DNA from: Desulfotomaculum nigrificans DSM 574
Lineage (GTDB): Bacteria > Bacillota > Desulfotomaculia > Desulfotomaculales > Desulfotomaculaceae
Direction: 5' to 3'
DNA: 64,000 nt
Assembly (NCBI RefSeq): GCF_000189755.2
Contig: NZ_KI912183.1
Location: forward strand, 1,490,257 to 1,554,256
Below are positions 5,701 through 19,038 of this stretch, piece by piece (the stretch's first letter is position 1; the number at the start of each line of letters is the position of its first letter). The notes under the pieces are model-generated. The model was given only the letters and a program-made list of their open reading frames with translations, made no database searches and was not told the DNA's origin. Both the position numbers and the translations under genes were made by a program.

Positions 5701-6366
5701 ATGGAACTATTAACTATAAGCAAAGCGGCAAAGAAATTAGGTGTACATCCGAACAGCCTGCGCAACTGGGAGAAGCAAGGCTTGATTAAGCCTGTCCGTT
5801 TACCTGGCGGTCAGCGCCGGTACTCCATGGACGAACTCAACAGGCTTTTGCAGTCCGGTCAATTAACTGATAGTCAAGAAGCAGTTGTGCTTTACGCCCG
5901 GGTATCCACTAAAAAGCAGGCCGATGCGGGCAAGCTGGACCGGCAGATGGAACGGTTGCGCCAATATGCCCGAGAACGCAAATTTAACGTTAAAGCGGAA
6001 TTAACGGACGTAGCCAGCGGTTTAAACCAAAAACGCCGCGGTCTGACAAACGTGCTCAAGTTGGCCGAGCGGGGTGAGTACAAAAAACTAATTATCGAAT
6101 ATCCCGACCGGCTGGCCCGGTTCGGGTATTCGTACATTGAGCGGCATTTAAGGTACTGTGGCGTAGAGATCGTAGCCATAGCTGAAAAAGAGCCGGAAGA
6201 CGCACAATCCGAATTGGTCAGGGACTTATTGGCAATAGTCACGTCTTTTTCGGCCCGGCTGTATGGCGCCAGGGGCGGGAAGAAGGTCAGGCAGGGTTTT
6301 CGGGAACTGATAGCGGAGGCATCTCAAAGTGAAAAAACGGAAGAACAACAAGAAGAAGCCGACTAA
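5701..6366 (+). CDS. tnpA: IS607-family TnpA: MerR-like DNA-binding domain fused to serine recombinase
   Basis: A 221-aa transposase. Residues 1-55 are a MerR-type winged helix (ISKAAKKLGVHPNSLRNWEK, then GGQRRYS). The catalytic domain begins with VVLYARVST (~62-70), whose Ser is the nucleophile, and ends with a dimerisation helix (LVRDLLAIVTSFSARLYGAR). The N-terminal placement of the DNA-binding domain distinguishes IS607 enzymes from resolvases. Length is typical. The gene overlaps tnpB by 38 nt, implying coupled translation. Confidence 0.93.
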   Translation: MELLTISKAAKKLGVHPNSLRNWEKQGLIKPVRLPGGQRRYSMDELNRLLQSGQLTDSQEAVVLYARVSTKKQADAGKLDRQMERLRQYARERKFNVKAELTDVASGLNQKRRGLTNVLKLAERGEYKKLIIEYPDRLARFGYSYIERHLRYCGVEIVAIAEKEPEDAQSELVRDLLAIVTSFSARLYGARGGKKVRQGFRELIAEASQSEKTEEQQEEAD

Positions 6367-8038
6367 GACTGACAACGACATAAGCTGCACCGTCTGCGGC
6401 GAATTTTTTCCAGAGGTCTACCCTGCCTTCCGCTCTCAAAAGTGGAGCCGCGGGATGGAGGACCCATTAGACACCGAGATGCGGCTGTTCTGCTCCTGCA
6501 CCCGCTGGGCCTTCAACCGGTTACAGGAAGATAATTCCCGCGAAGAGCTAAAGAAGCAGGGTCAAGGAACATTCGGCATAAACTCCCGCTATTGCGACGA
6601 CGCCATACTGAAGGCCAAAGCCGTAATTGAATCGCAAAAAGAGCTGCTTGAATTGGAGATCGAAGAAACAGAAGCAAAGTTAGCCCGTGCCAAGAAAAAA
6701 CTCAGTTGGGCAGAAAAAGACCTGGACAGGGCTGTTAAAGCAAACAATCCGGCTAAAATCGAGGACTTTAAGCACACCGTACACGGCCGCAAAGCCAGGG
6801 TAAAAAAGCTGGCTGACAAGCTGGACGAGCTAAAGGTCCACCGGGACAACGGCACCATACCAAAAGTAATTTTCGGAGGCCGTTCTCTGTGGAAGCGAGT
6901 GTGCAGAGGTAGGGTTTCGAGAGAAGAATGGCGGCAGGCCCGGCAGGACAGGCTGTACGCCCGCGGCGACGAGACCAAAGGCGGCAACCCGAATCTCAAA
7001 ATAAGCTGGCATAATGGAGAGTTCACCCTGTCTGTGACCATCTCTCACCTGTCCGAGCAGAAAGGGACAGACAAGAAGGGTAGACCCATAATGACCAGGG
7101 CACCCCGGGTAACGGGCAAGCTCTGGCTGCCTGAGAAGCACCGGCAAAAAGTGCTGGAGTTGCTCTTATCAGGTGTGCCTTACACTGTGGAGCTAATCAA
7201 AGGTAGGGACAGCCGGGATAGGGTGCACATCACCTTTGCCGTTACAGCCCCCGTTTTAGTGACCAACCCCAACCAGGGTTACCTGGGTGCAGACACCAAC
7301 CCCGACGGAGCAGCGCTGGCCAACGTCGGTTACACCGGACAGCCCGCGCCCTGGCCGGAAGGTTTCACCGTACCCTATCCGAAAGCACTGCACAAATTCG
7401 CCGGGGAATTTCAGATAACCATGCACCCGAACGGGTTTCTTTACATCAAGGTACCCGAATTGTCCTACAGCCGGGGCTTCCGGCGCACGTACTTAATTGG
7501 CGTGCTTGCCAAAGTAGTGGTGGACATAGCTAAAACTTTAGGCAAACCCATCGCTTTAGAGAGCCTGGACTTCGGCAAAGACCGTTTTGACACCAACCGG
7601 AAATTCAACCGCATGGCGGCCAATTTTCCGTTCAAGAAGATGGTCGAGGCCGTCATCCGTAAAGCCTTCAAAGAAGGCGTCGGTGTAAAGCAAGTCTGGC
7701 CGGCGCACACGTCCACCATCGGCTATTACAAATACATGGAGCGTTACGGCATAACTATCCACCACGCCGCGGCATTGGTCGTCGCCCGCCGGGCAATCGG
7801 TTTCAAAGAGTACATAACCAAAGAGTTAAAGCAGAAAGTTCAGGCCGTCAAAGAGAAACTGAGTCAAAAGGTAAATTCCTTGCCTGGGGAAGGAAGAGGG
7901 ATGACCCGAAAGGTGAAGCAACTCTTCAAGCGGCTGGACGGGAAGATTTCTGTACACAACGGTTTGACCCGTTACAAACAGGAATCGTTTCACTCTGTCT
8001 GGCATGACTTGAAACACCTTGCTTTATCAAGTAGGTGA
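6329..8038 (+). CDS. tnpB: TnpB-like RuvC nuclease of an IS607 element, zinc finger absent
   Basis: A 569-aa protein, long for TnpB (usually 350-450 aa). A Cys motif (CTVCGEFF) lies near residue 20 and a coiled coil spans ~105-190. The RuvC core is visible as GADTNPDGAAL (RuvC-I Asp, ~313) and IALESLDFGK (RuvC-II Glu, ~411). The usual CxxC...CxxC finger between RuvC-II and -III is missing, and the RuvC-III position reads ITIHHAAALVVARRAIGF, with His where the canonical Asp stands. GTG start 9 nt after GGAGG. TnpB enzymes are RNA-guided nucleases; whether this one cuts is uncertain. Confidence 0.8.
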   Translation: MKKRKNNKKKPTKTDNDISCTVCGEFFPEVYPAFRSQKWSRGMEDPLDTEMRLFCSCTRWAFNRLQEDNSREELKKQGQGTFGINSRYCDDAILKAKAVIESQKELLELEIEETEAKLARAKKKLSWAEKDLDRAVKANNPAKIEDFKHTVHGRKARVKKLADKLDELKVHRDNGTIPKVIFGGRSLWKRVCRGRVSREEWRQARQDRLYARGDETKGGNPNLKISWHNGEFTLSVTISHLSEQKGTDKKGRPIMTRAPRVTGKLWLPEKHRQKVLELLLSGVPYTVELIKGRDSRDRVHITFAVTAPVLVTNPNQGYLGADTNPDGAALANVGYTGQPAPWPEGFTVPYPKALHKFAGEFQITMHPNGFLYIKVPELSYSRGFRRTYLIGVLAKVVVDIAKTLGKPIALESLDFGKDRFDTNRKFNRMAANFPFKKMVEAVIRKAFKEGVGVKQVWPAHTSTIGYYKYMERYGITIHHAAALVVARRAIGFKEYITKELKQKVQAVKEKLSQKVNSLPGEGRGMTRKVKQLFKRLDGKISVHNGLTRYKQESFHSVWHDLKHLALSSR

Positions 8039-8739: not shown

Positions 8740-8851
8740 CTTTATTCGTTTATTATGTCTGTTTCATGCCGTCAGATTCGTCAGAGTCGGGTAAAAACAG
8801 TGCTTTTTCAGAGTGTTACAGATTATACTCCCATAAAAATGCGCCTGTCAC

Positions 8852-9952
8852 TCAGGCGCTGTAATTTTTCCGGAACGTTTTTGGGCAGGCGGCTAAACCT
8901 CCGATGTGATGACAGATATCATAAACGGAATACCCAGCCTTCCTTAAAGGCAGAATAACATTTCTTTCCAGATCGGGCAGATAAGATTTAACTGCTTTAA
9001 AATCCCCGTACAGTGTGTATGCCCCCAGGAAGGCCGGAACCAAGAAAGATTCTACCGCCCGAAAGGCCATCCTCTGGTTGCCGTTAAAGACTATTTCTCC
9101 TTCCCCTTCAATAACGGTATAAACAAAAAACCTTTCACCACCTGTATTTTCCTGCATACTACCCCGGACATCATACAGTTCTGCAGCAAAGCTCGAACAG
9201 GCTGCCAAATACCGGACCGTACACTTGTCTCCCTGTGCAATATGGAGTCCTTTAATTTTACCGGTTGGGCTTGCCTCTTCAAAATGCATGACTTCCAGGG
9301 CTCTCTCAATTTGCAGTGGTCTTTTGGTACCGTCTTCGCATACACGGTCATAATCATAAACACGGTATGTGATATTTGAGTTTTGCTGAATCTCCAGCAC
9401 CATGAGGCCTTCCCCCAGCGCATGCACGGTACCTGCAGGGATGTAGACAACATCCCCGGCAGACATCTGAACAGAACGAAGACATTTTGCCAACTCTCCG
9501 TCAGTAATGGCTTTTTCAAAGGCATCTCGGGTTACCCCCGGAGCCAGACCATAAATAATACCGGCGCCCGGTTTTGCCCTTAACACATACCACATTTCAT
9601 TCTTGCCGTATACTTCCCCTTCATGGGACCTGGCATAGTCATCATCCGGGTGCACCTGCACCGAAAGCCGGTCATTGGCATCAATGAGTTTAACCAGCAG
9701 GGGAAATTTAATAGCATACTTTTCTTCCAGGGCCGTTCCCAGCGCCCGTCTCTTGAACTTCTTAAGAAAATCAAGCAATGAAAGTCCTTTATAATCACCG
9801 TTGGCAATGGTGCTGAGTCCGCAAGGGTGGCAGGAAACCTCCCAACTTTCGGCAATTTTGCCATCGGGTAATTTTCTCCCCAAAAGTTCTAAATTTCTGC
9901 CTCCCCAGATATAATTTTTATAAACAGGTTCAAACTTCAAAGGATACAACAT
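8852..9952 (-). CDS. manA: Mannose-6-phosphate isomerase, class I
   Basis: A 366-aa cupin-type zinc enzyme interconverting fructose-6-phosphate and mannose-6-phosphate, the entry step to mannose nucleotides. Zinc ligands are visible: SVQVHPDD (Gln99, His101), KNEMWYV (Glu119) and AGTVHALGEG (His177), followed by QNSNITYRVYDYDR. It is about 40 residues longer than the Bacillus enzymes; the extra C-terminal tail contains an HH pair and three cysteines and is unexplained. Last gene of the minus-strand mannose operon, 126 nt after L25, with a terminator/antiterminator pair in between. The role fits GH130, phosphomannomutase and nucleotidyltransferase in the same operon. Confidence 0.93.
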   Translation of the reverse strand: MLYPLKFEPVYKNYIWGGRNLELLGRKLPDGKIAESWEVSCHPCGLSTIANGDYKGLSLLDFLKKFKRRALGTALEEKYAIKFPLLVKLIDANDRLSVQVHPDDDYARSHEGEVYGKNEMWYVLRAKPGAGIIYGLAPGVTRDAFEKAITDGELAKCLRSVQMSAGDVVYIPAGTVHALGEGLMVLEIQQNSNITYRVYDYDRVCEDGTKRPLQIERALEVMHFEEASPTGKIKGLHIAQGDKCTVRYLAACSSFAAELYDVRGSMQENTGGERFFVYTVIEGEGEIVFNGNQRMAFRAVESFLVPAFLGAYTLYGDFKAVKSYLPDLERNVILPLRKAGYSVYDICHHIGGLAACPKTFRKNYSA

Positions 9953-9980: not shown

Positions 9981-10086
9981 AAAACAAAAAAGAAACTAAA
10001 TCAAAGGCGTGTTTCCTTGCCAATGATTTAGTTTCTTATATTGTCTATTTCCAAAATATCACAAGCCAATTGACTAAATCATTGGC
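9981..10086 (-). promoter_or_regulatory. Terminator with competing antiterminator between L25 and manA
   Basis: Read on the minus strand, segment A (plus 10074-10086) pairs with segment B (10019-10031) over 13 bp. B extended (10024-10037) also pairs with segment C (9990-10003) over 14 perfect bp, and the B:C hairpin is followed by TTTTTTGTTTT, a standard terminator. A and C share GATTTAG, so the hairpins exclude each other. Segment A contains the L25 stop codon, so a terminating ribosome would cover A and favour the terminator. Confidence 0.6.
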
Positions 10087-10645
10087 TCGCAATATCCAGT
10101 TCTTTTCCAATGCTAACTACAGCCAGGATATCATCTTCTTCATTGAGAATCTTTATTTCATCATTAACCTTGAGGAGATCCCTCACTGTAATTTTATCCC
10201 CGAGTTCTTTGTTTTCTACATCCACAGTAATAAACTCAGGCAGCAAATTGACCTTGCCGGCCACCTCCACCTCCGGCAAGAACACCTGCAGCAGCAATTT
10301 CTTTTCTTCCAATCGGTTTTTGCCTTTAAACAAAACCGGTATTTTTACTCTGACAGTATCGTTGTCTGTCACTGTTTGCAAATCGATATGCAGAACCTTA
10401 CCGGTGATAGAATCCCGCTGGACCTCCTTAACGATACACTGCTTAATGTGCTCTCCAATTTTTACTTGTACTTTGGCGCCTTCCCGGTGGTTCTTCAAGA
10501 CCCGCAGTAATTTGTTCATTTCAAACTTTATACAAAGTCCCTCTGCCATTCCTTCTCCATAAATTACTCCCGGCGCAAAGCCTTTTCTCCGGGCCTTATT
10601 GGCTTTTTCCGTTCTTTCTATGGCTCTCAGAAGTAATTCACTCAT
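10079..10645 (-). CDS. rplY: 50S ribosomal protein L25 / general stress protein Ctc
   Basis: A 188-aa two-domain (CTC-type) L25: the 5S-rRNA-binding beta domain (residues ~1-90, with APGVIYGEG) and a TL5-type C-terminal domain (residues ~95-188). The longest frame was trimmed by 34 codons to the ATG preceded by AAAGGAG with 8-nt spacing. In Firmicutes Ctc binds 5S rRNA and is often stress-induced, which is notable because this operon begins at a CIRCE operator. It lies between phosphomannomutase and manA, an uncommon place for a ribosomal gene. Confidence 0.88.
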   Translation of the reverse strand: MSELLLRAIERTEKANKARRKGFAPGVIYGEGMAEGLCIKFEMNKLLRVLKNHREGAKVQVKIGEHIKQCIVKEVQRDSITGKVLHIDLQTVTDNDTVRVKIPVLFKGKNRLEEKKLLLQVFLPEVEVAGKVNLLPEFITVDVENKELGDKITVRDLLKVNDEIKILNEEDDILAVVSIGKELDIASQ

Positions 10646-10739
10646 ATCATCTACTCCTTTGTTTCTTTTTGTCCGTGCATCTAAACAACAAGAGTAAATG
10701 ATAACCGGTTTACGGTTAGGAATAAACGGTACAAAGGCA

Positions 10740-12101
10740 TCAGGCAACTTTTAACGGAGATATGGATCGGGCAATTTCCTGTTTGATGGTTTCCAATTGG
10801 TCCTGGCTGCCTGCTTCACAACGGATGATAAGTTCCGGGCCGGTATTGGAAGCCCGGACAAGCCCCCACCCGTTGGCAAATTGCACCCTGACGCCGTCCA
10901 CATCAATAAAGGGATAGCCCTTATCTTTGAAATATTTTTTGGCATGGCTGACATACTGATATTTCTTGTCTTCCTCGCAGGCAACCCGAATCTCGGGCGT
11001 ACAGTAGGTTTTTGGTACATCCGACAGCAGTTCACTCAAAGGTTTATCGCTGTGGGAAAGGATTCTCAGTAGTCTTGCAGCGGCGTAAAGGGCATCGTCA
11101 TAGCCGTAATATTCGTCTGCAAAAAACATATGCCCGGACATTTCACCTGTAAAAACCGCATTTATCTCCTTCATCTTGGCTTTAATCAATGAATGGCCTG
11201 TCTTATAAAAGAAGGGCTTGCCTCCCAGCCGTCGGATTTCATTAACAAGCAGGTCAGAACATTTAACCTCCACTATGGCATCGGCCCCGGGATATTTGGG
11301 CAGAATTTCCCTCCAGAAAAGGATCATCAACATATCTCCCCACAGGATGTTACCCTGCTCGTCAACCACGCCCAGCCGGTCGCCGTCCCCGTCGAAACCA
11401 ATACCCAGATCAGCCTTGTTTTCTTTAACTGCCGTAATCATATCCTTTAGATTTTCCGTTTTCACCGGGTCAGGGAAATGGTTGGGAAATGTCGGGTCCG
11501 ATTCGCAGTACAACGGAATCACATCACATCCCAGCTCCCGCATTACTGCGGGGGCAAAAAGGCCGGCGGTGCCATTGCCACAGTCCACCACCACCTTTAA
11601 CTTTCTGTCTCCCAGGACAATTTTCTCTTTCATCATGCTGATGTAGTCATCAACCGGCCACCGGCAGGTCAACCGACCGCTACCCTTCTCAAAAACTCCC
11701 CGGTTGGCCATTGCTTTTAATTGCTGCAATTCCTCCCCGTAGAGCGTTCTGCCGCCATACTGGACTTTAAACCCGTTATACTTCGCAGGGTTGTGACTGG
11801 CGGTGATCATGATGCCGGCATTGATTCCATACAGGTGGGTAGCATAGTAAAAGATGGGAGATATGACCACGCCAATGTCTATGACATCAACGCCGGTCTC
11901 CAGCAACCCCTTCACCAAATGTTCGTGGAGAACCGGAGAAGATTCTCTGTTGTCCCGGCCCACAATGGCCTTGGATTCACCTTTTTGTCTGAGAAAGGTA
12001 CCGAAGGCCCGACCAATCAAGGCCGCGTCTTGTACGGTTAAATCTTCGCCAAAAATTCCCCGGATGTCGTATTGTCGAAAAATGCGCTCGTTAACAGCCA
12101 T
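10740..12101 (-). CDS. Phosphomannomutase / phosphoglucomutase
   Basis: A 453-aa alpha-D-phosphohexomutase moving phosphate between C6 and C1 of mannose (or glucose). The four family signatures are present: TASHNP (phosphoserine Ser102), the metal loop FDGDGDR (Asp237/239/241), the sugar loop GEMSGH (~325) and the phosphate loop ending RASNTGPELIIR (~425). Length is normal. It supplies mannose-1-phosphate to the nucleotidyltransferase upstream in the operon. Mannose versus glucose preference is inferred from neighbours (ManA, GH130). Confidence 0.9.
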   Translation of the reverse strand: MAVNERIFRQYDIRGIFGEDLTVQDAALIGRAFGTFLRQKGESKAIVGRDNRESSPVLHEHLVKGLLETGVDVIDIGVVISPIFYYATHLYGINAGIMITASHNPAKYNGFKVQYGGRTLYGEELQQLKAMANRGVFEKGSGRLTCRWPVDDYISMMKEKIVLGDRKLKVVVDCGNGTAGLFAPAVMRELGCDVIPLYCESDPTFPNHFPDPVKTENLKDMITAVKENKADLGIGFDGDGDRLGVVDEQGNILWGDMLMILFWREILPKYPGADAIVEVKCSDLLVNEIRRLGGKPFFYKTGHSLIKAKMKEINAVFTGEMSGHMFFADEYYGYDDALYAAARLLRILSHSDKPLSELLSDVPKTYCTPEIRVACEEDKKYQYVSHAKKYFKDKGYPFIDVDGVRVQFANGWGLVRASNTGPELIIRCEAGSQDQLETIKQEIARSISPLKVA

Positions 12102-12126: not shown

Positions 12127-13140
12127 TTATTGATATACATCCAGAGCCAGGCAAGCAATAAAATATGAAATGATGCTTTCCGCTCCCTGATTTAGATTGA
12201 GGCCCTTTTCCGTAATGCCGTCGTAACAGCCATCGGTTTCCGGATCGATCAGGCACAGGCCCTTTGAATTGTCGCCATGGTACCATGCCAAACACTTGCG
12301 GGCCCTGTCCAAATACCGCTTGTGGCTGGTAATACGGTAGGCCTCCAAATAGGCCAGCAGCATTTCACTGGCCTCTAAGGGCTGCTCGTCATACTCCGCT
12401 CTTGGCTGACCTTTTAAGAACCAGCCGTGGCAACCCACCGGTTTAAAATACCCTTCGCCAAAAGTGATCCTTTCCAGAAAGGCCAGGCTTTCACTGGCGA
12501 TGTCCAGCAGTCTTTGTTCTCCTAAAACCCTGTATGCTGCCAGCAGGGACCACGGGAGTACCGCATTGCTGTATGTCAACCCGTCCTCAAACCAGTTCCA
12601 GTGGTCATCTCGATGCTCTTCATACTGTTTTGCCAGGGATTCAGCCAAATTCCGCACATGTTCCTCTGTTTCTTGCATATCCAAACAGGTGAGCCCAATG
12701 AGGGAATAGGCTTTGGCACGGGGCCAGCGGAGGCTTGCAACATGAGGAAGGGCTTTCTGCAGCAGGTACCTGCAGGTATCCTTGACATTACGTGGGGTTT
12801 TGGCGCTGGCCAAAGTATACCCTAGGGCCCACAGGCACCTGCCAAAACAATCTTCGGAACCTGACTCTTCCATAAAGTCCCGGTTATAACCCATGAAATT
12901 TTTAAACCGCCCCTCCCTGTTTTGGGCATTCAGTACAAAGGACAGGTATCGGTACACCAGAGCCAGGTATTTTTCCTGGCCAAACCTTTCATACAGCATC
13001 ACCGCCATAATCAAGGCCCTGGCGTTGTCATCGGTGGTGTAGCCCTTGGTGGGGTCAGGAACACCGTATTTAGCATGCTGGAACATCCCTGTATCATCGG
13101 TAAGCCGGAAGATGTGAGAGTCTTTCAAGGGCTGGCACAT
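12127..13140 (-). CDS. Glycosidase-like (alpha/alpha)-barrel protein of mannan clusters
   Basis: A 337-aa soluble protein with repeated helical hairpins rich in Trp, Tyr and acidic residues (KGYTTDDNARALIMAVMLYE; GSEDCFGRCLWALGYTLASA), typical of six-hairpin toroid glycosidases or epimerases. I do not recognise a named family. Its start overlaps the stop of the upstream glycosyltransferase (TAATG), so the two are translated together and probably act on the same glycan. Hydrolase, phosphorylase or non-catalytic partner cannot be told apart from sequence alone. Confidence 0.6.
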   Translation of the reverse strand: MCQPLKDSHIFRLTDDTGMFQHAKYGVPDPTKGYTTDDNARALIMAVMLYERFGQEKYLALVYRYLSFVLNAQNREGRFKNFMGYNRDFMEESGSEDCFGRCLWALGYTLASAKTPRNVKDTCRYLLQKALPHVASLRWPRAKAYSLIGLTCLDMQETEEHVRNLAESLAKQYEEHRDDHWNWFEDGLTYSNAVLPWSLLAAYRVLGEQRLLDIASESLAFLERITFGEGYFKPVGCHGWFLKGQPRAEYDEQPLEASEMLLAYLEAYRITSHKRYLDRARKCLAWYHGDNSKGLCLIDPETDGCYDGITEKGLNLNQGAESIISYFIACLALDVYQ

Positions 13141-14315
13141 TACACCGCAACCCCGGCTTTCTGGCTCTTTTCTATTATGTTAAGAAACAGTCTTGTATAC
13201 TGGTTGGCAATATTCCCCCACATCATGGTCTTACCGATGCTTAAGGTTTTCTGCTCCATTTCTTTCTTTTTATCCGGGTTCTCCAGTACAAACTTGATGC
13301 ATTTGGCCAGGGAATCGGCATCCGCAAACTCTGCCAGCAGCCCCCTGCCGTCGGCCAGCATTTCCCGGGCATAACTGTATGGAGTGGCTATAATCACCCT
13401 GCCGTACCCCACCGCATAGGCCAGGGTACCGCTGACCGCCTGGTCTTTGCCCAGGTAAGGGGTCATGTAGATGTCGGACAATTGGAGGTATTGAATGATT
13501 TCCTCCTTTGTCAGGTACTTATTCACGAACTGAACATGATCTCTGACACCGAGGCGCTCCACTAGGTCCAGCAGTCTTTCCCGGTAGGCTTCCCCGTATT
13601 CCCTTTTTACACAGGGGTGTGTCTGCCCAAGGATCAGGTAAAGGACATCCTTGTGTTCTCGGGCCACCCGGGCCACGGCTTCTATACCGTATTCCAGGCC
13701 CTTTCCCGGGCTGATCAGTCCAAAGGTACTGATCACCTGCCTGCCCTGCATACCGTACTTTTCTTTCAGTTTTTCTCTGGACTCCATTACCCTAAATGGT
13801 ACTCCGTGATGGATTACCTCAATTTTGTCTGGCTGTATTTCATAGACCTTCTTTAACAAGTCCACCGTGTTCCTGGCCATGGTTACAATCTTCTGACTCC
13901 TGGCGCCCAGAGTTTTAAGAATCTCACGTTGTTTCGGCAAGGGGTTCGGCAGTACGGTATGTACCGTGGTAATCAGCGGCACCTGCAGAGCATCAATGAG
14001 ATCCAGCAGGTACTCTCCGCATTCGCCGCCAAAGATACCGTACTCATGCTGGATAACCAGGAGTTCCAGCCCTGAACGGTTGATCTCCCGGGCGATGTCC
14101 CGGTAATTGTTGCGCTCATGCTGCTGAAGCTCCATCACGACTGGCTCATCATAGTTATACCGGGTATCACTAACGGCGATAACCTGCGGCCTGTGGAGAA
14201 GTCCTGCCCGGTCGATTTCACTCACAAGATCTTGAGTGAAGGTGGCCAGCCCGCACTCCCTGGGTGGATAGGTGCTGAGAAAGGCCACTTTCCCTATCCT
14301 ATTCCTTACAACCAT
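13140..14315 (-). CDS. Glycosyltransferase family 4 (GT-B fold)
   Basis: A 391-aa cytosolic enzyme. The N-terminal Rossmann half starts with KVAFLSTYPPRECGLATFT and contains IQHEYGIFGG; the C-terminal nucleotide-binding half contains ISTFGLISPGKGLEYGIEA and the donor-site block KDQAVSGTLAYAVGYGRVII. It is a retaining transferase of the mannosyltransferase-rich GT4 family. With a nucleotidyltransferase making the donor and a GH130 enzyme in the operon, transfer of mannose from GDP-mannose is the likeliest reaction. The acceptor is unknown. Good GGAGTG site before the ATG. Confidence 0.8.
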   Translation of the reverse strand: MVVRNRIGKVAFLSTYPPRECGLATFTQDLVSEIDRAGLLHRPQVIAVSDTRYNYDEPVVMELQQHERNNYRDIAREINRSGLELLVIQHEYGIFGGECGEYLLDLIDALQVPLITTVHTVLPNPLPKQREILKTLGARSQKIVTMARNTVDLLKKVYEIQPDKIEVIHHGVPFRVMESREKLKEKYGMQGRQVISTFGLISPGKGLEYGIEAVARVAREHKDVLYLILGQTHPCVKREYGEAYRERLLDLVERLGVRDHVQFVNKYLTKEEIIQYLQLSDIYMTPYLGKDQAVSGTLAYAVGYGRVIIATPYSYAREMLADGRGLLAEFADADSLAKCIKFVLENPDKKKEMEQKTLSIGKTMMWGNIANQYTRLFLNIIEKSQKAGVAV

Positions 14316-14336: not shown

Positions 14337-15380
14337 TTACATGGCCATCGGGTGACTTACCTGTTGGGTATAAACCGTTTTACAAAACTCCATATTCCTG
14401 TGAATCCGGCAGTTGTCAGCCACAATGGTATCAATCAATCTGGCGCCGCTGTCTACTGTTACTTTGTCCCAAACAATACTGCCGGCAACCTTGCTCCCCC
14501 TGCCAATCACACAATGATTCCCGATTACCGTGTAAGGACCGATGGTGGCAAATGCGCCGATTTCAGCATGTTCTCCAATGTACACCGGTCCGATAATCCG
14601 AGCATGGGGGTGAATCTTAGAGTTTTTCCCTGTAAAAATTATGTTGCTGGTATAGTCTGCTTCCGGAATTTTGCACCTGCCGCTTAAAATATCCTTATGG
14701 GCCTGCAGATACTTGGCCGGCGTACCGATATCCATCCAGTAGGAACCGCCCTTATAGACAGCGATTTGATAGCCCTTTTGCAGCAGTGAGGGGAAGACTT
14801 CCCGCTCCACCGAAACCGCCCTGCCGGAAGGGATTTCTCGCAGAACATCCGGTTCAAAAACATAGATACCTGCATTGATATAATTCGATGTAATCTCACT
14901 GGGATGGGGTTTTTCCTTAAAAGAAACAATATAGTCGTCCCGATCAAACTCTATAACCCCGTACATGGAAGGATTATCCACTTGTGTTACGGCGATGGTG
15001 GCAACGGCTGATTTGCTTCTATGAAATCTGATTAACTCTTCAATATTGATATCGCAGAGAATATCGGAATTGAACACAATGAAGGGCCCGTCGAAAAATT
15101 TTTCGGTATTTTTAATGGCGCCACCGGTTCCCAGGGGAATATCCTCCCGAATATACTCAATTTTAAGTCCCAAACGGCCCCCGTCGCCGAAATATTCCTC
15201 AATCTGCTGTGGTTGATAGCAAGTGCTCAAAACGATTTGTTCAATGCCATATCCTTTTAACTTGGTCATGGTTCTTTCCAGCAGAGGTCTTACCATGACA
15301 GGCACCATGGGCTTGGGAATTTGGTTGGTCAGGGGGCGAAGCCTTGTCCCCATGCCCCCTGCCAGAAATAACGCTTTCAT
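14337..15380 (-). CDS. Sugar-1-phosphate nucleotidyltransferase (mannose-1-P guanylyltransferase type)
   Basis: A 347-aa enzyme with the nucleotidyltransferase signature GGMGTRLRPLT (residues 8-18), catalytic LGTGGAIK (~83), the FNSDILCD metal site (~98) and NAGIYVFEP (~167). The C-terminal third is a left-handed beta-helix of hexapeptide repeats (IGEHAEIGAFATIGPYTVIG). Architecture fits GDP-mannose or ADP/UDP-glucose pyrophosphorylases; operon company favours mannose-1-phosphate. AAGGGGG lies at normal distance from the ATG. The spacer to GH130 is 143 nt without a clear terminator. Confidence 0.85.
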   Translation of the reverse strand: MKALFLAGGMGTRLRPLTNQIPKPMVPVMVRPLLERTMTKLKGYGIEQIVLSTCYQPQQIEEYFGDGGRLGLKIEYIREDIPLGTGGAIKNTEKFFDGPFIVFNSDILCDINIEELIRFHRSKSAVATIAVTQVDNPSMYGVIEFDRDDYIVSFKEKPHPSEITSNYINAGIYVFEPDVLREIPSGRAVSVEREVFPSLLQKGYQIAVYKGGSYWMDIGTPAKYLQAHKDILSGRCKIPEADYTSNIIFTGKNSKIHPHARIIGPVYIGEHAEIGAFATIGPYTVIGNHCVIGRGSKVAGSIVWDKVTVDSGARLIDTIVADNCRIHRNMEFCKTVYTQQVSHPMAM

Positions 15381-15523: not shown

Positions 15524-16525
15524 TTAAAACTCTTCCTCTTTAGGCTCCGGGCATCTTTTAATATACTCCAGGAGATCGCTCAGGGAAGCGGTAGCCAAGG
15601 CAATGCAGGTGTCCGCCCCGCCATAGTACATCTTGATCATCCCCGTCCGGTTGTCCAGTATCCAACCACAGGGAAACACCACATCATCTACGTCTCCTTC
15701 CCTTTCGTAATACTCGGAAGGTCCAAATACCCATTCATCACTTCTTCTTAACACCCGGAAAGGATTTTCTAAATCCAACAGGGCCAGCCCCAGGCGGTAA
15801 ATGGCGCCGGCGGCAGTTTTTCTGACGCCGTGATAAAGGATCAGCCATCCTTCCGGCGTCTCCAGCGGTTGTGCGGAAAGGCCCACCTTATTGGCATCCC
15901 ACCAGCCTCCCCGGCGGGCGTTAATTAAAATCTGGTGTTCGCCCCAGTATTTTAAGTCCTCGGATCGTGATATCCAGATATGGGCGCTGGGGGCGTGGCT
16001 GGCGGGGATCGGCCGGTGGATCATCACCCATTTGCCGTTAAACTTGCGGGGAAAAAGCGCTGCGTCTTTATCCTCCGGAGGCATGACCGCCCCCAGCTTT
16101 TCAAAGGTTTTAAAATCTTTGGTCAACGCCAGGGACACCAGAGGTCCTCCTCGGGAATAAGCGGTATAAGCCACAGCCCACTGGTTCAGTTCTTCCATCC
16201 AGGTAATCCTGGGATCTTCAATCCCCCATTCTTCCTCGGGAAAAAGATCCGGTTCAGGTATTAGTGTAGGGAAAGAGTCAATTTGCCAGTTGCTCACACC
16301 GTCTTCACTGATGGCTTTTGTGAGGTGAGAAAAACCGCGCCTGTCTTCCACCCTGGCCAGCAATAGCACCTTATTTTGATAAACCGTTGCCGCAGGGTTA
16401 AACACGGTATTGGCCGGGTAAGGCCAGTCTTTGGAAGTGAGGATAGGGTTGCGGGGATGTCTTTTAAAGAGTTCCCTGTATGTATTGTTTCCGCTTGTTA
16501 ACTTACTTTGAAAACCTTTACCCAT
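15524..16525 (-). CDS. GH130-family beta-mannoside phosphorylase-like enzyme
   Basis: A 333-aa five-bladed beta-propeller enzyme. The GH130 core motif appears as EEWGIEDPRITW (~100), with HRPIPASHAP, GLSAQPLETPEGWLILYHGV and WVFGPSEYYEREG further on. GH130 enzymes cleave beta-mannosides with phosphate, releasing mannose-1-phosphate, which would feed the same operon. The start was moved 14 codons inward to the ATG after AAGGAGG (11-nt spacing); the longer frame begins inside the leader. First gene of the operon, directly downstream of a CIRCE-controlled promoter. The linkage it attacks is not predictable here. Confidence 0.83.
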   Translation of the reverse strand: MGKGFQSKLTSGNNTYRELFKRHPRNPILTSKDWPYPANTVFNPAATVYQNKVLLLARVEDRRGFSHLTKAISEDGVSNWQIDSFPTLIPEPDLFPEEEWGIEDPRITWMEELNQWAVAYTAYSRGGPLVSLALTKDFKTFEKLGAVMPPEDKDAALFPRKFNGKWVMIHRPIPASHAPSAHIWISRSEDLKYWGEHQILINARRGGWWDANKVGLSAQPLETPEGWLILYHGVRKTAAGAIYRLGLALLDLENPFRVLRRSDEWVFGPSEYYEREGDVDDVVFPCGWILDNRTGMIKMYYGGADTCIALATASLSDLLEYIKRCPEPKEEEF

Positions 16526-16604
16526 AAATAAAAAAGCCTCCTTCAACCAATTAAAAATGCTGTGCATTTAAAATCAGTGGGAGCTTTTTTAATATGGTTT
16601 ATTG

Positions 16605-16668
16605 TTAGCACTCATTTTTAATGAGTGCTAGTAATTAAATACTATTTTATGATTTTGTTTCCTGTCAA
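16605..16668 (-). promoter_or_regulatory. Sigma-A promoter overlaid by a CIRCE (HrcA) operator
   Basis: On the minus strand a TTGACA -35 (plus 16663-16668), an 18-bp spacer and a TAGTAT -10 (16639-16644) are followed by the CIRCE inverted repeat: TTAGCACTC at 16605-16613 and GAGTGCTAG at 16623-16631 with a 9-bp gap, one base off the consensus arm. CIRCE just after the -10 is the classical HrcA position at groESL and dnaK, but here it precedes a mannose operon. Confidence 0.85.
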
Positions 16669-16960
16669 GGATTTTCTTGACTGATAAAGGCACAATCTGG
16701 TTAATGTAACTCAATTATTTCAAAAAATCCAGCGTTGGCTTTTTATTGCGTAAAAAATGTCTTTTGCTGTAAGCAGAAATATGAGTTGCAGAAAGGGATC
16801 TTCAAAGGCAGGAACAGCTATTCAAGAACTGACCAGGAAGCGCCTTCATGAGAATGAAAGAAGACAACTTTTAATTGGAAAAACTACTTTTGGGGCACCC
16901 TCTTTTTTGCCCCCAATTGCCTGCCCTCATTTAAATCCACTAATTACCAAAGGAGTCCCC

Positions 16961-17009
16961 TTGTTTTAAGCACATATGTTTGGTATAATTTCTTAAAACA
17001 TGTGTTTGG
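16961..17009 (+). promoter_or_regulatory. Promoter of the Y-family polymerase with two LexA-like boxes
   Basis: TTGTTT (16961-16966) and TATAAT (16984-16989) are 17 bp apart. Two related boxes, GCACATATGTTTGG (16970-16983) and AAACATGTGTTTGG (16996-17009), flank the -10; both resemble the Gram-positive SOS box built on GAAC-N4-GTTC but are imperfect. The remaining spacer from 16669 to 16960 holds no convincing gene. Confidence 0.5.
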
Positions 17010-18600: not shown

Positions 18601-19038
18601 ATGGCGTTAATTCCTTACGAACCATTCCGTCATCTGGACAACTTTAGGCGGGAGTTAGACCGTTTCTTCACGGGGGATTTCCCTTTGACCGGCTTTGGTC
18701 AAAGATTTGGTAATCCCAGTATTGATGTTTACGAAACCGACAATGAAGTTGTAGCTAAATGTGATATTCCTGGCTTGGAAAAGAAAGAAGATGTAAATAT
18801 CTATATTGACAATAACATCCTTACCATTAGCGGTGCTGTAAACAGAGTTAACGAAATCAAAGAAGAAAATATGCATAGACAGGAGCGTTTTTTCGGACGT
18901 TTTCAGCGTTCCGTCAGCTTGCCGGCCCGTGTTTCATCAGAAGATGTCAAGGCCACATACAAGAACGGTGTACTGGAAATTCGCATGCCTAAACTACAAG
19001 CTGAAACTAAAAAAAGAATCGACATCGAGTTTCATTAA
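18601..19038 (+). CDS. Small heat-shock protein, Hsp20/alpha-crystallin family
   Basis: A 145-aa ATP-independent holdase chaperone. The N-terminal arm (PYEPFRHLDNFRRELDRFF) is followed by the alpha-crystallin domain (residues ~40-130) with PSIDVYETDNEVVAKCDIPG and the conserved YKNGVLEIRMPK (~120-131). AGGGGG precedes the ATG by 10 nt. No CIRCE is visible in its 70-nt leader, in contrast to the nearby mannose operon. A strong terminator follows. Confidence 0.93.
   Translation: MALIPYEPFRHLDNFRRELDRFFTGDFPLTGFGQRFGNPSIDVYETDNEVVAKCDIPGLEKKEDVNIYIDNNILTISGAVNRVNEIKEENMHRQERFFGRFQRSVSLPARVSSEDVKATYKNGVLEIRMPKLQAETKKRIDIEFH

Follow-up and report, generated by a model that had tools for sequence, protein, structure and literature searches.

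HrcA is usually described as a narrow regulator of chaperone genes, and from work on other bacteria its activity is tied to the titration of GroEL. The HrcA regulon predicted for C. acetobutylicum is given, in the regulon description of the source, as hrcA-grpE-dnaK-dnaJ, groESL, CAC2705 and htpG (PMC3828012). The locus analyzed here shares with the HrcA/CIRCE (class I heat shock) regulon of Firmicutes the operator sequence, the position of the operator at the promoter, the presence of further sites at hrcA and groESL in its genome and, from published C. thermocellum data, heat induction; it differs in its target, which is a glycan operon instead of chaperone genes. The second point of comparison is the GH130 beta-1,2-mannoside phosphorylases (Teth514_1788/1789, Lin0857 and Uhgb_MS), which have in common with the first protein of the operon a Glu that precedes the catalytic Asp, a Lys in the DKD motif and basic residues. 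The protein described here differs in scoring below both NCBIfam equivalog cut-offs and in having its best overall matches, which are also its nearest solved sequences, in TM1225, RaMP2 and Uhgb_MP.

Two reserve polymers are also close. Leishmania mannogen is a beta-1,2-mannan reserve involving GT108 enzymes, which have the same fold as GH130, and its intracellular cycle of beta-1,2-mannoside through mannose-1-phosphate is one that the present system would share (PMC8950772, PMC3900632); it differs in belonging to a eukaryote and to another enzyme family. Bacterial glycogen operons (glgC, glgA, glgP) likewise bring together a nucleotidyltransferase, a GT-B synthase and a phosphorylase, and the structural model of the GT4 enzyme here resembles glycogen synthase among others; the differences lie in the mannose enzymes, in GH130 replacing the glucan phosphorylase and in the heat-shock operator. 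Searches of the open-access literature listed no paper connecting HrcA or CIRCE with a mannoside operon. In several groups of anaerobes, the heat switch of the chaperone genes appears also to drive genes for the synthesis and recycling of mannose sugars. Placing a glycan pathway under an HrcA operator would tie the making of carbohydrate to protein-folding stress and would provide a concrete candidate for a sugar made on heating.

In the window, that is, the whole 64,000-nucleotide stretch of DNA that was analyzed, a run of seven minus-strand genes lies behind CIRCE, encoding GH130, a nucleotidyltransferase, GT4, a barrel protein, a PGM/PMM mutase, bL25/Ctc and ManA. The features, in the order of transcription, are as follows.

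16663..16668, minus strand: -35 hexamer TTGACA, from a consensus scan
16639..16644, minus strand: -10 hexamer TAGTAT, 18-nt spacer, from a consensus scan
16605..16631, no strand assigned: CIRCE (putative HrcA operator), 1 mismatch in 18, kept upstream of GH130 in relatives
16522..16597, minus strand: type B leader hairpin in a predicted fold, whose paired bases would include the Shine-Dalgarno sequence (about 16537-16543) and the ATG at 16525
15524..16525, minus strand: GH130 mannoside phosphorylase family protein (PF04041, 189 bits; start revised from 16567)
14337..15380, minus strand: sugar-1-phosphate nucleotidyltransferase with hexapeptide repeats, GDP-mannose type likely (PF00483; NCBIfam model below cut-off)
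13140..14315, minus strand: GT4 glycosyltransferase (PF00534, PF13439; model and fold search)
12127..13140, minus strand: (alpha/alpha)6-barrel protein with an epimerase-like fold (model pLDDT 87, fold matches)
10740..12101, minus strand: phosphoglucomutase/phosphomannomutase (four PGM_PMM domains; best model PgmG, below cut-off)
10079..10747, minus strand: ribosomal protein bL25/Ctc with TL5 C-terminal domain (TIGR00731, 94.8 bits, cut-off 73.1)
8852..9952, minus strand: mannose-6-phosphate isomerase ManA, class I (TIGR00218, 159.9 bits, cut-off 116.2)
8841..8859, minus strand: terminator-like hairpin overlapping the end of manA (terminator scan; such sites are not above shuffles in the region)

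The gaps in the operon are at most 143 nt as annotated, and two gene pairs overlap. Translation of GH130 probably starts at the ATG at 16525, not at 16567, because a GGAGG precedes that codon and translation of the orthologues in L009, L012 and L014 begins at the matching place. An earlier note on this DNA had the gene families right and missed the seventh gene (12127-13140, between GT4 and the mutase); its inclusion of L25/Ctc in the operon was backed by a separate copy of CIRCE and leader before L25 in another genome (G408). The genome that contains the window is complete and close to that of Desulforamulus putei, with GH130 99% identical and the other six operon proteins 88-97% identical. 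Farther along the window (6329-8038), a frame of 569 aa has, by eye, the look of a transposon-associated TnpB-type protein.

The CIRCE pattern was taken as a 9-9-9 inverted repeat, TTAGCACTC-N9-GAGTGCTAA, with 18 specified bases. At up to 3 mismatches it was matched in none of 100 shuffles. The genome of the window (3.05 Mb) contains three CIRCE at up to 1 mismatch, before hrcA, before groES-groEL and before the GH130 operon, so that the classical targets carry the same operator in the same genome, and the reversed pattern found no match in these 3.05 Mb. HrcA itself is encoded there (TIGR00331, 369 bits, equivalog cut-off 197). Twenty genomes had 2-7 CIRCE each, with no reversed-control match in any of the 20; seven further genomes had 3-5 each, and the reversed control gave one match in each of two of them. 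A chance origin of CIRCE was rejected on the absence of shuffle matches, the few sites per genome and the reversed controls close to zero. A site with 3 mismatches in the same genome as the window (L004), considered as a fourth operator, was rejected as it sits within an open frame.

The promoter-like pair TTGACA-N18-TAGTAT agrees with the consensus at 10 of 12 positions, in a region rich in such pairs (8.8 kb scanned, with 13 pairs vs 11.7 expected). Its -10 hexamer ends 7 nt before CIRCE, and transcription would therefore begin at the edge of CIRCE, the classical position for this operator. The CIRCE and promoter scans thus bear out the earlier proposal of a consensus-like promoter with CIRCE at the classical position. 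CIRCE is symmetrical and the next gene on the plus strand encodes DNA polymerase IV (17034), so that the operator might serve this divergent gene rather than GH130; the promoter hexamers face GH130, the polymerase gene starts about 400 nt off and a panel search of the other 77 loci turned up no such gene next to GH130. This assignment, to which we give hardly any weight, was set aside on the orientation of the hexamers and on the neighbors in relatives.

CIRCE at up to 2 mismatches lies upstream of GH130 in 12 of 77 loci from named genomes, ending 37-321 nt before the GH130 match. These loci belong to D. putei, Clostridium sp. LS, Acetivibrio straminisolvens, Pseudobacteroides cellulosolvens, Thermoclostridium caenicola and Propionispora sp. 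2/2-37, with MAGs making up the remaining six, and all 12 carry the GT4 of the operon on the same contig, 59-96% identical. G185, from the same order as the window, also has CIRCE before GH130. In the other 65 loci, nothing resembling CIRCE was found on the stretch examined when up to 4 mismatches were allowed; some of these contigs are short. Among these loci are Sporomusa, Pectinatus and Thermincola with the same GH130 and GT4, which counts against HrcA control; in their genomes (G414, G421, G419), and in that of a further locus (L016, G413), CIRCE stands only at hrcA, groESL and HtpG-like genes, where a family model confirms HtpG for L149 and L211 and other cases were read by eye.

In a sample of the phylum, GH130 was found at E 1e-90 in 34 of 398 genomes; CIRCE was present in 5 of the 30 GH130 loci examined and absent from 25, and the five include the window together with near relatives of loci counted above. 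Within the family of the window only 2 of 10 genomes have GH130 (E 1e-20), its own included, and the operon is therefore dispensable; in the family of G155, GH130 is present in 1 of 3 genomes. The order of A. straminisolvens has a GH130 orthologue in 9 of 58 genomes, with CIRCE before GH130 in 6 of the 9, three of these 6 being P. cellulosolvens-like and not independent.

Of the remaining three genomes, G407 and G408 have the operon split, with CIRCE on the separate nucleotidyltransferase-GT4 part (L147 and L140); in G475 there is no CIRCE at GH130 within the stretch examined. G408 has a further CIRCE before L25 (L139). This distribution bears on the view that the operon serves to break down mannooligosaccharides from the environment, with CIRCE being incidental. 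Most characterized GH130 enzymes are catabolic mannoside phosphorylases according to the enzyme comparisons in the literature (PMC4599007, PMC8950772), which would agree with such a route. Against it, the split operons keep CIRCE with the synthetic part, the nucleotidyltransferase and GT4 point to synthesis, and no transporter, mannanase or sugar regulator is found among the seven genes; a catabolic role of this kind is thus improbable.

Several relatives place the glycan genes beside chaperone genes. In P. cellulosolvens (L012), CIRCE is followed in one direction by genes for GH130, the nucleotidyltransferase, GT4, the barrel protein, the mutase, GroES, GroEL, a PF06541 membrane protein and Hsp20. 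In T. caenicola (L013) groES-groEL come after the barrel gene in the same direction, in Propionispora (L019) groESL is divergent from the glycan genes with one CIRCE on each side, and in a MAG (L014) hrcA lies upstream on the same contig. The PF06541 membrane protein is a recurrent CIRCE target elsewhere (L154/L194, L192, L210); the P. cellulosolvens gene (L012:16914-17498) sits behind groESL. PF06541 is the family formerly named DUF1113, and the CIRCE-controlled PF06541 gene is probably Cthe_1851.

Published expression data point in the same direction. In a microarray study of C. thermocellum shifted from 58 to 68 C, Table 2 presents the ten most heat-induced genes, with negative values meaning higher expression in heat (PMC3848806). 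These include Cthe_3112, "Glycosidase related protein" (-2.61 at 30 min), Cthe_3116, "Mannose-6-phosphate isomerase, class I" (-2.78), Cthe_1851, DUF1113 (-2.84), and Cthe_3125, Hsp20 (-4.07). The main text of the study treats Cthe_3116 as central carbon metabolism and does not contain the words "CIRCE" or "operator" (PMC3848806). Genome G434, probably that of C. thermocellum, has five perfect CIRCE, before htpG, hrcA, the PF06541 gene, groESL and the GH130 operon, which here consists of five genes (GH130, nucleotidyltransferase, GT4, barrel and manA), the same number as from Cthe_3112 to Cthe_3116. From gene count and annotation, Cthe_3112 and Cthe_3116 would be the ends of the CIRCE-bearing GH130 operon. 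The published microarray would thus already contain the induction signal, worded as central carbon metabolism, and the arrangement, which recurs among several clostridial lineages, would on present evidence also occur in C. thermocellum, a laboratory and industrial thermophile.

Considering these results, membership of the GH130 operon in the HrcA regulon is very probable, and HrcA control is the best explanation, well supported because of the comparison among genomes and the indirect expression data. The proposal of HrcA control in the earlier note has accordingly gained strong support from the conservation of CIRCE, the linkage to groESL and the heat induction in C. thermocellum (PMC3848806). 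We infer from this material that the Cthe genes are this operon, that HrcA would bind here and that the genes are co-transcribed, and likewise which sugars the enzymes use and that the product is a glycan serving for protection or as a reserve. Deletion of hrcA in T. kivui gave no growth phenotype at 72 C in the experiments presented there (PMC12044746), which counts against this explanation to an extent that depends on T. kivui having the operon.

The GH130 protein of the window keeps the catalytic Asp (D104), E103 (Glu in place of Tyr before it) and K153 (of the DKD motif) invariant in 15 sequences. K153 aligns with the Lys of Uhgb_MS, the position being Arg in the three beta-1,4 enzymes shown. 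Also among these 15 sequences, R171 and K213 are invariant and H232 nearly so; these are presumably the phosphate-binding residues. Conservation of basic residues at the presumed phosphate site argues for a phosphorylase, and a hydrolase was rejected on the same basis. A rule for beta-1,2 specificity calls for Lys for the linkage and Glu instead of Tyr before Asp (PMC4599007); K153 would correspond to Lys199 of BT3780. Scores against the two best NCBIfam equivalog models, both for mannobiose phosphorylases, were far below cut-off (231.7 of 550 and 188.4 of 450 bits). In alignment, the residues of GH130 follow the pattern seen in beta-1,2-mannoside phosphorylases.

The best NCBIfam model for the nucleotidyltransferase is mannose-1-phosphate guanylyltransferase, below cut-off, and its best solved relative is annotated as a uridylyltransferase. 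For GT4 (model pLDDT 85) the fold matches include MshA, PimB', glycogen synthase and PimA; the barrel protein (pLDDT 87) is nearest to 7tem, a structural-genomics protein (TM 0.81, 19% identity), and to cellobiose 2-epimerases. GT4-like frames of 729 aa (L028) and 779 aa (L029) have room for a fused barrel domain, and the latter has a weak match to C5-epimerase, as does the barrel protein. The mannose pathway read earlier from this DNA is supported insofar as the enzymes fit mannose metabolism, with a putative sugar-nucleotide specificity and product.

From their predicted functions, the genes likely make and recycle a mannose-containing glycan, with the synthesis and recycling of a beta-mannoside as our best guess. 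A stress-protective or storage glycan is a plausible reading, and the narrower view, modeled on Leishmania mannogen, that it is a beta-1,2-mannoside which protects the cell or serves as its reserve is a tentative guess. It is also conceivable, at a similarly modest probability, that HrcA control is real and that the pathway just tops up activated mannose for cell-envelope, S-layer or protein glycans in heat damage, in which case no storage or protective glycan would be made and GH130 would salvage fragments. The resemblance of GT4 to lipid-linked and small-molecule mannosyltransferases, PimA and PimB' among others, the general role of manA, mutase and nucleotidyltransferase as GDP-mannose enzymes and the absence of the GH130 gene from the CIRCE-controlled run in G453 are in line with such a supply role. 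It agrees less well with GH130 being the first gene in the window and in most relatives examined, with phosphorylase residues that fit an intracellular cycle through mannose-1-phosphate, and with the lack of a membrane export gene among the seven genes of the window.

The G453 locus (L214:5190-6136) consists of CIRCE and leader, about 950 AT-rich bases and then the nucleotidyltransferase, GT4 and barrel genes. It looks as though the GH130 gene was lost and its control region retained; a search of L214 for a remnant of GH130 found none.

We have proposed a plausible model for heat control and synthesis of a mannose glycan by this operon. At normal temperature, free GroEL would keep HrcA active, and HrcA, seated on CIRCE over the start site, would block transcription. 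On heating, unfolded protein would titrate GroEL, HrcA would be released and the seven genes would be turned on together with groESL and the hrcA operon. Through ManA and the mutase, fructose-6-phosphate would become mannose-1-phosphate, the nucleotidyltransferase would activate it, most likely as GDP-mannose, and GT4 with its barrel partner would build the glycan, which GH130 would recycle or extend through mannose-1-phosphate; L25/Ctc would be co-induced for the ribosome. The arrangement suggests that the glycan is part of the core heat-shock defense in those anaerobes. In its boldest and decidedly speculative form, the model would have anaerobes make a "bacterial mannogen", a beta-1,2 mannoside or mannan, within the core chaperone response, switched by HrcA with groESL, in some species on the same gene run, and tuned by a leader RNA that also stands before L25/Ctc and the PF06541 gene. 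If this were true, the folding state of cellular protein, via GroEL titration, would directly set the synthesis of a protective sugar.

The stretch between CIRCE and the first gene is itself conserved. In many relatives, about 105 nt behind CIRCE form, in predicted folds, one long conserved hairpin ending in a U tract (type A). Its folding energy lies at z -6.3 to -9.2 vs shuffles in six of the seven leaders that were aligned, the exception being L013 at -0.4. Five other leaders gave -3.7 (window), -3.9 (L079), -2.1 (L019, weak), -1.9 (L024, weak) and +0.5 (L027), and L180 has a weak excess stability. Across 11 type A sequences, 94% of the cells are paired vs 44-59% in slid versions; the covariation score is 0.230 vs 0.179 shuffled, reached by none of 500 shuffles, a score that relatedness can inflate. 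Pairs changed on both sides number 6, which is not above the slid versions (2-7).

A leader model built from six sequences (R1) matches type A in L011 and L016, both without CIRCE, and before separate nucleotidyltransferase-GT4 genes, L25 and a PF06541 gene; in the class of G155 it matches in 1 of 4 genomes. Within the order of A. straminisolvens, a second model (R2) matches in 12 genomes out of 58, and in the class of G406 it matches in 6 of 391; the leader is therefore not general. In the order of A. straminisolvens, counting the better strand per place, 14 of 16 R2 matches lie directly behind CIRCE. The genes downstream of the 16 are GH130 (6), a nucleotidyltransferase (4, one about 1 kb off), L25 (2), a PF06541-type gene (2, one by eye) and groESL (1, L181), with one further gene near a contig end. 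At hrcA, groESL and htpG sites, no leader was found among 40 loci, barring two matches of 21-22 bits (L149, at htpG, and L147) that overlap CIRCE itself; the other four CIRCE of G434 have no leader match.

Rfam models gave, on window positions 16300-17000, a best sub-threshold match of 29.1 bits vs a gathering score of 52, and such matches were set aside; on seven relatives they returned only tRNA, tmRNA and one c-di-GMP riboswitch, none of them in the leader. A conserved leader RNA without an Rfam family is an unexpected find and a possible second layer of control.

The type B hairpin of the window is unlike type A in sequence and is common to the window, D. putei and G185, more loosely to Propionispora; its covariation was drawn from four sequences, two of them near identical, and carries little weight. 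The predicted fold has -27.0 kcal/mol at 37 C (z = -3.7 for an 80-nt part), and its calculated energy comes to about 0 only near 76 C, which exceeds the growth range of D. putei. A simple thermometer melting in the physiological range was rejected for the window on this energy.

A second layer at the mRNA level, which would add to HrcA and not replace it, may exist at somewhat below an even chance, the leader hairpin attenuating transcription, protecting the mRNA end or, in the window, hiding the ribosome site and start until heat. The stability of type A (6/7), its pairing and covariation, the position of the R2 matches directly behind CIRCE and, in the window, the predicted pairing of Shine-Dalgarno sequence and AUG are consistent with such a layer. 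Set against these are the both-side pair changes within the slid range, the high temperature at which the window hairpin would open, the difference in sequence between the two hairpin types, the leaders with no excess stability (L013, L027) or a weak one (L180), the terminator scan, which flagged none of the leader hairpins, and a type A leader that precedes groESL (L181).

Further genes were noted behind CIRCE or near heat-shock genes. L25/Ctc stands alone behind CIRCE and a type A leader, or behind a leader and a weak CIRCE-like site with 3 mismatches, in G408 (L139, L188) and G470 (L206). Propionispora has an HtrA-like protease with trypsin and PDZ domains behind CIRCE (L165:775-1920). In P. 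cellulosolvens an exported-looking protein without a Pfam match (L151:1030-1788) follows CIRCE and a weak leader match (19.9 bits), and after it comes a second pair of nucleotidyltransferase-like and manA-like genes. The window has an Hsp20 gene on the opposite strand (18601-19038), 2 kb from the operon and without a CIRCE in the window. The hrcA operon of G000 carries between hrcA and grpE a thermosome-like chaperonin (Cpn60/TCP-1, archaeal-type or group III; L134:3186-4751), and similar thermosome-like genes follow hrcA in L157, L161 and L171.
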